DNA from: Clostridiaceae bacterium BRH_c20a
GTDB lineage: Bacteria; Bacillota; Peptococcia; Peptococcales; BICA1-8
Length of the DNA: 45,543 bases
Direction of reading: 5' to 3'
Assembly: GCA_000961765.1 (NCBI GenBank)
Contig: LADT01000037.1
Location: 1-45,543 of the forward strand
Positions 34,453 through 37,058 of the stretch are shown here, piece after piece. Below the pieces are notes generated by a model, which was given only the letters and a program-made list of their open reading frames with translations, was not told the DNA's origin and ran no database searches. The stretch's first letter is position 1; each line of letters starts with the position of its first letter. A program made the position numbers and the translations under genes.

Positions 34453-34902
34453 CTACTGTTTAATCTCCCCGACACAGTAATCAGTATTAACAGCCATTCT
34501 TTTCAAAAGTCTGACCACTTGTTCCTTTTCCTCCTTGGAAAAATCTTTAGTAAGCATATCCGTCCAATTTTCTACTACCCTTTTTAAAACTGGTTTTATA
34601 GTTAATGATTTCTCTGTAACTCTAATAATATTTGCCCTTCTATCATTGGGGTCAGCTCTTCTAATTATATATCCTTCTTTTTCGAGCTTTTTAATAGCCC
34701 GAGCCGTAGTCCCTTTATCAATTTGTAGCAAAGCAGATAAGTTTTCTTGGCTAATACCATCCTGGTGAAGTAAAACAGCGAGAAACATCCCCTGCCCACT
34801 GCCAAGATTATAAGCCTTCAATTCCTTATCAAGATACGATTGTCCAGTTCTATACAAGACAGAAAGCCAGGGGCCAATTGCTTTATCTTTAGCATCCATC
34901 AT
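34453..34902 (-). CDS. MarR-family transcriptional regulator
   Basis: A 149-residue winged-helix regulator. The core is HQDGISQENLSALLQIDKGTTARAIKKLEKEGYIIRRADPNDRR (about 45-90), the standard MarR wing. The only Cys is near the C-terminus (C143), so it is not an OhrR-type N-terminal-Cys sensor. It follows the MATE gene by 10 bp and has a good site (GGAGG). It likely represses its own operon and perhaps msrA through the GTTGC/GCAAC palindromes at 36323-36383. ATG 34899 is an equally good start. Confidence 0.93.
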   Translation of the reverse strand: MMDAKDKAIGPWLSVLYRTGQSYLDKELKAYNLGSGQGMFLAVLLHQDGISQENLSALLQIDKGTTARAIKKLEKEGYIIRRADPNDRRANIIRVTEKSLTIKPVLKRVVENWTDMLTKDFSKEEKEQVVRLLKRMAVNTDYCVGEIKQ

Positions 34903-34912
34903 TATCCCTCCG

Positions 34913-36286
34913 TTACTTAACTGGTTCAGGTACCAGGCTTTCTAGATGCTTGGTATCCAGACTTTTTAATTCCATTAAAAGCCATGTCCCGGTCAATAAC
35001 GCTGAACCTAAGTCTGCAATGGGTCCTGCATATAATATGCCGTTGAAACCATAATATTTGGGTAAAATTAAGATTAAAGGGATTAATAGCAATACCTGCC
35101 TGGATAAAGTTAAAAACATAGCCTGCTTAGGCTTGCCTACTGCTTGGAAATAATTTGCTCCTACTACCTGAAATCCGATTATTGGTAAACCAATGAGGAA
35201 AATTGTTAAAGCATGCGACCCTAGCTTGATAAGTTCTTGGTCTTCTTTGTTAAAGAAAGCAATAATTTCCGCCGGAAATATTCTAGTAGCTATAAATCCA
35301 ATACTCACCACTAAAGTAGCGGCAAAAATTGCCAATTTTAAAGCCTCTTTTACACGATCAAAGTTTTTAGCCCCATAATTATAACCAATAATAGGCTGTG
35401 CTCCCTGATTAATTCCAAACACAGGCATTAAAATAAGCATCATTGCACTATTAATTATCCCCATGCCCGCAATAGCCGTATCACCACCATAATAACTTAA
35501 GGAATTATTCAAAATTACATTTAGTAAACTAGCCGCCATTTGCATAGCAAAAGGGGGCGAGCCGATGGCTATAATTTTTTCTACAATATACCACTTAAGC
35601 CTAAGATTAGCCCGCCGTAGCTTTAAAGTACTATGGCCGCTTAAAAAGTAGTAAAGCACCCAACCCGCAGAAATCATCTGAGAGATTATTGTTGCAAAGG
35701 CTGCACCTTTCATCCCCCAGTTAAAGATAAAAATAAATACATAATCTAATATAATATTGGTAATGGCCCCAATAAGCATAGTATACATAGCGACCTTGGG
35801 GTTCCCTTCAGCCCGGATAAAGTTATTCATCCCAAATCCTATGGCCATAAAAACATTACCCCATAAAATTATGTGCATATAGTCTTTGGCATAGGGCAGT
35901 ATACTTTCCGTTGCACCAAAAAGTATTAGTAAAGAATCAATAAATATTAACCCTAATACAGATATTACCAAAGAAACTATAACTAGGAGAGTTGCTGCAT
36001 TACCCATGATTAGTTCTGCCTCGTCAATTTTCTTTTCGCCTAACCTAATAGATACAAGAGCATTAGCACCAAATGCTATTAACATGGCAAAAGCCATTCC
36101 TACTATCATAACAGGGAAGCCTATTGTTATCCCCGCGATGCCTAATGAGCCTACTCCATTACCAATAAAAATCCTGTCTACAACATTATATAGTGCATTT
36201 ACCAGCATTCCGATAATTGCCGGTATAGAGAACTTTAGTAAAAGCTTGGATACCTTTTCCTCCCCTAGCTGTTTTGAGCGATCCAT
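34913..36286 (-). CDS. MATE-family multidrug efflux protein
   Basis: A 457-residue membrane protein with 12 hydrophobic helices. ATG 36286 is chosen because AGGGAGGC lies upstream; longer in-frame starts lie in the palindromic promoter. Family features: KLLLKFSIPAIIGMLVNALYNVVDRIFIG at the N-terminus, NPKVAMYTMLIGAITNIILDYVFIF, and FGINQGAQPIIGYNYGAKN. It exports cationic drugs or dyes with Na+ or H+ drive. It forms an operon with the marR-like gene and shares a divergent control region with msrA. Confidence 0.94.
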   Translation of the reverse strand: MDRSKQLGEEKVSKLLLKFSIPAIIGMLVNALYNVVDRIFIGNGVGSLGIAGITIGFPVMIVGMAFAMLIAFGANALVSIRLGEKKIDEAELIMGNAATLLVIVSLVISVLGLIFIDSLLILFGATESILPYAKDYMHIILWGNVFMAIGFGMNNFIRAEGNPKVAMYTMLIGAITNIILDYVFIFIFNWGMKGAAFATIISQMISAGWVLYYFLSGHSTLKLRRANLRLKWYIVEKIIAIGSPPFAMQMAASLLNVILNNSLSYYGGDTAIAGMGIINSAMMLILMPVFGINQGAQPIIGYNYGAKNFDRVKEALKLAIFAATLVVSIGFIATRIFPAEIIAFFNKEDQELIKLGSHALTIFLIGLPIIGFQVVGANYFQAVGKPKQAMFLTLSRQVLLLIPLILILPKYYGFNGILYAGPIADLGSALLTGTWLLMELKSLDTKHLESLVPEPVK

Positions 36287-36322
36287 AAAATTATGCCTCC
36301 CTAGAAATAAAATAAAGCATTT

Positions 36323-36336
36323 GTTGCACATGCAAC
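36323..36336. promoter_or_regulatory. GTTGCACATGCAAC operator-like palindrome
   Basis: This 6-2-6 inverted repeat has the same GTTGC/GCAAC half-sites as the centre of the adjacent 46-bp palindrome. It lies at the expected transcription start of the MATE-MarR operon. The paired MarR protein is the obvious candidate ligand. Confidence 0.6.
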
Positions 36337-36337
36337 T

Positions 36338-36383
36338 ATTATATGAGAAACTAGTTGCGCGCGCAACTAGTTTCTCATATAAT
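36338..36383. promoter_or_regulatory. 46-bp perfect palindrome holding two divergent promoters
   Basis: The left arm (36338-36360) and right arm (36361-36383) are exact reverse complements; the centre reads AGTTGCGCGCGCAACT. On each strand TTGCGC is exactly 17 bp from TATAAT: minus -35 36366-36361 and -10 36343-36338; plus -35 36355-36360 and -10 36378-36383. Both promoters overlap, one facing MATE-MarR and one facing msrA. The core GTTGC/GCAAC pair is a MarR-type operator. Confidence 0.75.
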
Positions 36384-36399
36384 TTTGACACCATTTACT

Positions 36400-36413
36400 C
36401 TATGTATACATAG
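36400..36413. promoter_or_regulatory. CTATGTATACATAG palindrome in the msrA leader
   Basis: This is a perfect 14-bp palindrome about 10-25 nt downstream of the predicted msrA start. A second small hairpin CACCT-CTC-AGGTG follows at 36415-36427. They may be an operator for another regulator or leader structure. Confidence 0.4.
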
Positions 36414-36503
36414 GCACCTCTCAGGTGAAAATATTAACATTACTATTGGGCTTTTTTTAAAATATTTAATTTAAGTACTTACCAGCGCAGGAGGTCTAAA
36501 ACA

Positions 36504-37058
36504 ATGCAAAATCATATGAACAACTTATCCTCAAATAATGAAAAAGCAACCTTTGCCGGAGGTTGCTTTTGGTGCCTGGTTCCACCTTTTCAAAATTTGG
36601 AGGGAGTCGGCGATATAAAGACAGGTTATATCGGGGGCAGGACCCCCTGTCCCACCTACGAGGAGGTATGCACCGGGGAGACTGGACATTATGAAGCGGT
36701 ACAGATAACCTTTGATCCCCAACAGGTTAGTTATGAAGAACTGCTTAATATTTTTTGGCGGCAAATAGAACCTACCGATTTTGCAGGGCAGTTCGCTGAC
36801 CGGGGTAGCCAATACCGAACCGCTATTTTTTACCACTCCCCCCAGCAAAGACAGGCCGCGGAAAAATCCAAGGAGGAACTGGAGAGAGCTAGTTATTTCT
36901 CCACTCCCATTGTGACAGAAATTATAAAAGCCCTCGAATTCTACCCTGCAGAAGATTATCATCAAGACTATTATTTGAAAAACCCCATCCATTACCAAAG
37001 TTATAAAATTAGTTCCGGCAGGGAGGCCTATATTAAATCCCAAAAAAATAATGACTGA
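36504..37058 (+). CDS. msrA: Peptide methionine sulfoxide reductase A
   Basis: A 184-residue MsrA with catalytic C21 in AGGCFWC. Substrate-binding landmarks are GYIGG, YEEVCTGETGHYEAVQI and YHQDYYLKNP. It reduces methionine-S-sulfoxide in proteins and free methionine in the cytoplasm. The ribosome binding site AGGAGG lies 8 nt before ATG. Expression appears to come from the plus-strand promoter inside the 46-bp palindrome, so it may be coregulated with the MATE-MarR operon, a link between drug and oxidant stress. No MsrB domain is fused. Confidence 0.96.
   Translation: MQNHMNNLSSNNEKATFAGGCFWCLVPPFQNLEGVGDIKTGYIGGRTPCPTYEEVCTGETGHYEAVQITFDPQQVSYEELLNIFWRQIEPTDFAGQFADRGSQYRTAIFYHSPQQRQAAEKSKEELERASYFSTPIVTEIIKALEFYPAEDYHQDYYLKNPIHYQSYKISSGREAYIKSQKNND

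Follow-up and report, generated by a model that had tools for sequence, protein, structure and literature searches.

A candidate MarR operator at the centre of a perfect 46-bp palindrome in the promoter of a MATE efflux operon

In a 45,543-nt stretch of DNA from Clostridiaceae bacterium BRH_c20a (here, the window), the sequence and its comparison with relatives indicate that a MarR repressor very probably controls the drug-efflux operon in which it is encoded, through short symmetric sites over the promoter. The promoter of this MATE-marR operon lies within a perfect 46-bp palindrome with a candidate operator, O1, at its centre; a second candidate operator, O2, directly follows the -10 box. 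At a probability of about 0.8, we take the region to be an autoregulated efflux promoter with MarR on O1 and O2, in which the mirror arm was probably copied in the window lineage. By accident or design, the perfect 46-base mirror may add a second promoter that faces msrA (Table 1).

Table 1. Positions of the genes, promoters and candidate operators at the locus
Feature	Position	Strand	Basis
MarR-family regulator, operon gene 2, presumed repressor of its own operon	34453-34902	-	PF01047
MATE efflux transporter, operon gene 1	34913-36286	-	PF01554, TIGR00797 above cut-off
Candidate operator O2, core GTTGC-ACAT-GCAAC at 36323-36336 (GTTGCACATGCAAC), adjoining the MATE -10 and overlying the predicted start	36322-36337		Kept in G003 and G082
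Palindrome with O1 central, -35 and -10 boxes mirrored on both strands	36338-36383		Arm complementarity, single copy, palindrome census
MATE-marR promoter: TTGCGC 36366-36361, 17 bp, TATAAT 36343-36338	36338-36366	-	Same spacing and -10 in nine MarR-clade loci
Candidate operator O1, TAGTTGC-GCGC-GCAACTA, over the -35 boxes	36352-36369		TTGC-N4-GCAA kept in MATE-marR relatives
Mirror promoter toward msrA, predicted, lineage-specific: TTGCGC 36355-36360, 17 bp, TATAAT 36378-36383	36355-36383	+	Present by symmetry, absent in relatives
Alternative msrA promoter, TTAACA-18-TAAAAT, 10/12 match	36434-36463	+	Standard promoter scan
msrA, divergent neighbour, only possible target	36504-37058	+	TIGR00401

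Results

The palindrome (ATTATATGAGAAACTAGTTGCGC/GCGCAACTAGTTTCTCATATAAT) consists of two 23-nt arms (36338-36360 and 36361-36383) that are 100% complementary and meet without a loop, which bears out the description given by an earlier sequence-only reading. Its single copy in the 4.51-Mb genome speaks against a mobile element or repeat as the source, and an expectation of 2e-7 such palindromes per genome, calculated from the base composition of the window, places it far beyond chance. A census that covered 842,543 bases of this genome found just one more loop-free palindrome whose arms reach at least 18 nt, a perfect one of 42 bp (L166:19233-19274). It repeats in mirror image the 3' end of an ORF of 77 aa, FeoA-like by eye, with AGGAGG included; the mirroring of a gene's 3' end is consistent with arm copying.

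As the earlier reading had also stated, TTGCGC and TATAAT stand 17 bp apart on both strands. Its picture of overlapping promoters holds only for the polymerase footprints, which would overlap; the -35 boxes themselves abut, without bases common to both. The TTGCGC -35 box is weak, matching three of the six consensus bases, and for this reason the arrangement was not returned by a standard promoter scan. The most likely start of the MATE gene is ATG 36286, preceded by the ribosome-binding site GGGAGG; we prefer it to the start assigned by the ORF caller (36394), which lies beyond the palindrome. The genes with PF01554 and PF01047 matches are adjacent on the same strand, so that a MarR winged-helix regulator is encoded together with a transporter. 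The solved structures nearest to this MarR are 3s2w and 3bpx/3bpv, with MepR farther away. Family assignment at a finer level gave scores below the cut-offs, at 128 bits against 850 for MepA (transporter) and 91.5 bits against 125 for the BilQ equivalog (regulator).

Conservation across MATE-marR relatives gives good support to the proposal, made in the earlier reading, that the GTTGC/GCAAC half-sites form an operator for the MarR of the downstream operon. The operon is present in G003 (76% identity for MATE, 64% for MarR), G082/L021 (68% and 55%), G007 (63% and 50%) and G010 (47% and 37%), and in all four TTGC-N4-GCAA, 11 bp and TATAAT precede the MATE gene; before the MATE genes of relatives that lack this marR, the pattern TTGC-N4-GCAA-N11-TATAAT was not found. 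When the promoters of six genomes with a MATE-marR operon, now including G158, were aligned, the main invariant columns were TTGC....GCAAC and TATAATA. O2 is kept behind the -10 box in the two closest operons, those of G003 and G082, and is lost or degenerate in the other operon relatives. The centre-to-centre distance between O1 and O2 is 31 bp, or three helical turns, so two bound dimers would share one face of the DNA.

The same site accompanies this MarR clade more widely. Of 36 related-MarR loci, 18 (17 identified by script and L042 by eye, missed by the script because its genes overlap) have it upstream of marR or MATE-marR, versus none of ten distant MarR loci, so that a palindromic promoter operator is conserved together with its regulator. 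A reversed-pattern control gave no matches at the MarR-clade loci, and shuffled sequences led us to expect 0.09 sites where 21 were observed. The clade consensus is approximately TAGTTGC-N4-GCAACTA, and nine MarR-clade loci have exactly 11 bp between operator and TATAAT. The exact motif is absent from the other half of the 36 clade loci, some of which carry variants; one variant, TAGTTGTCAATGCAACTA in genus g83 (G295/G100), likewise overlaps the -35 box of marR, TTGACA, as read from the sequence. In a class-wide scan the full pattern occurred in the window's own genome only at the palindrome, once per strand. Five of the other near-matches in this genome were inspected as signs of a wider regulon, and all five lie inside genes. 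A literature search for the operator returned nothing relevant.

The outer arms are a different matter. Beyond the operator core, further symmetry extends over 17 bp in the window versus 0-6 bp in relatives, and the mirrored outer arms with their -10 copy are absent from the close relatives examined. By this comparison, the conserved unit is an operator of about 18 bp with a TATAAT at 17-bp spacing, not the 46-bp palindrome.

A scan of 398 genomes of the phylum for the mirrored pattern gave one exact match elsewhere, in G048, and none was found in viral contigs. The G048 site (ATTATAGCGAATGTTAGTTGCGATAGCAATTAACATTCGCTATAAT) spans 46 bp with one arm mismatch, lies upstream of a marR-MFS operon and also has an O2 behind the -10 box. 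At this site (L124 3540-3604; G048:C17:18539-18603), O2 and O1 are exact reverse complements over 20 bp. Its arm letters differ from those of the window and the two MarR proteins are 34% identical, so the G048 case looks independent; for the G048 marR, the best matches in its family are at 31-37%, none of them a close orthologue. Since the mirror promoter of G048 points into the 3' end of an opposite-strand gene, it serves no divergent gene.

Three further candidates for mirrored sites were set aside. G067 has a 40-bp palindrome, but no marR in the surrounding 3 kb; in G010 the symmetry extension is short; and in genus g182 the TATAAT boxes stand back-to-back with spacers that are not mirrored. 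The g182 boxes (L103, L104, L107 and L109) are 46 bp apart throughout the genus, and in at least L104 the downstream ORF is ksgA-like (rRNA methylase).

Discussion

The locus resembles the autoregulated MarR efflux operons of E. coli (MarR), S. aureus (MepR/MepA) and P. aeruginosa (MexR), in which a winged-helix MarR protein is associated with a multidrug transporter or a gene for resistance and palindromic operators lie over the promoter. It differs from these in its half-site, GTTGC with a 4-bp centre, and in its gene order, MATE-marR; the window MarR is only distant sequence kin of MepR (E about 1e-8). From the arrangement and conservation of the sites we infer that a MarR dimer would bind O1, a half-site of which doubles as the -35 box, and that a second dimer on O2, on the same face of the DNA and over the start site, would exclude RNA polymerase. 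Release of MarR by a ligand, probably a substrate of the pump, would then allow pump and repressor to be made. The weak -35 box and the half of the clade loci that lack the exact motif count against such an autoregulated promoter. TAGTTGC-N4-GCAACTA constitutes a concrete and widely conserved candidate operator for a MarR clade whose members stand beside genes for MATE and other transporters, and regulons should therefore be predictable.

For the palindrome, we consider that the arm on the promoter side was probably duplicated across O1 in the window lineage; the simplest route would be a template switch at the symmetry of the operator itself. Such copying would have produced the mirror promoter toward msrA, which would also be repressed through O1. 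Template-switch mutations that extend the arms of inverted repeats are documented, and the cases described in PMC7202029 and PMC3820800 are alike in that an imperfect inverted repeat is made perfect by arm copying; the palindrome differs from those cases in that copying is deduced here solely by comparison and that a repressor operator would be the seed. Chances are about even that the mirrored arms are nothing but a neutral by-product of such a mutation, with a second promoter that is silent or inconsequential. The lineage-specific arms, the second loop-free palindrome in the same genome and the independent G048 case all favour this account. In particular, the G048 geometry, which has no gene to serve on its mirrored side, favours template-switch copying over selection for divergent control, and the back-to-back g182 boxes, with their unmirrored spacers, suggest that mirrored spacers are better explained by arm copying than by selection on two promoters. 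Against copying and neutrality alike, the relatives compared all belong to genera other than that of the window, and the arms of both mirrored cases end right at the -10 box, which could hint at selection for the second promoter, although the mirrored search pattern itself favoured a boundary at this position.

It is rather unlikely that the palindrome is instead a selected bidirectional promoter at which one MarR dimer switches MATE and msrA together while polymerases compete, as the earlier reading had proposed. Being mirror images, the promoters that face msrA and MATE are equally good over the 46 bp, and both -35 boxes lie within O1. In the distant genus g83, moreover, marR-MATE and a short operon are transcribed divergently, with a variant operator between them (L239 in G100, L143 in G295). 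The short operon contains an aldolase-like gene, with msrA following after at least one other gene, and in G100 it encodes an msrA-msrB fusion; this arrangement keeps joint control of efflux and msrA a possibility. The comparison with nearer relatives speaks against it. msrA adjoins no MATE-marR operon in class relatives, and in phylum genomes that have both, the two are mostly far apart. None of four same-family genomes has an msrA match, so its placement here is recent or a relic. The mirrored arms, including the -10 copy, are absent from relatives, and msrA has its own, better-scoring promoter (10/12) closer to its start. Selection for a promoter need not mirror the letters of the spacer, and the conserved g182 boxes show no such mirroring; the G048 mirror promoter faces no divergent gene. 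The case for a joint efflux-msrA switch is thus weak.

Bidirectional promoters of bacteria, in the cases described (Warman et al.; PMC12825309 and its reference 16), share with the palindrome a symmetry by which polymerase binds in two mutually exclusive orientations, but the starts in those cases flank or lie within one shared -10 element. The palindrome is not of this type, since its two -10 boxes flank the abutting -35 boxes, with the operator central. At E. coli bidirectional promoters, polymerases compete only under strong transcription (PMC12825309).

A broader idea, which we regard as improbable, is that perfect mirror copies of promoters arise again and again from the MarR operators within them, so that a single mutation yields a symmetric promoter centred on the operator and puts a neighbour under the control of that repressor. 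The two apparently independent mirrored cases make a testable example of how the symmetry of a repressor site could, in one event, turn a promoter into a bidirectional one.

That the palindrome acts as an RNA hairpin, in a terminator or an attenuator, or marks the end of a mobile element is a very remote reading. The strand does fold into a perfect hairpin of 21 bp, but both promoters have predicted starts downstream of the palindrome, so that neither mRNA would contain it, which makes a role in termination or attenuation unlikely, and there is no T-tract terminator at the palindrome, no Rfam match and no second copy in the genome.

Two further elements lie on the msrA side. In the leader of the predicted mirror transcript, a perfect 14-bp palindrome, CTATGTATACATAG, is directly followed by CACCTCTCAGGTG (36400-36426); together they are possibly a site for another regulator. 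Within the start of msrA, a terminator-like hairpin on the minus strand (36542-36570) could halt antisense read-through short of the MATE promoter.
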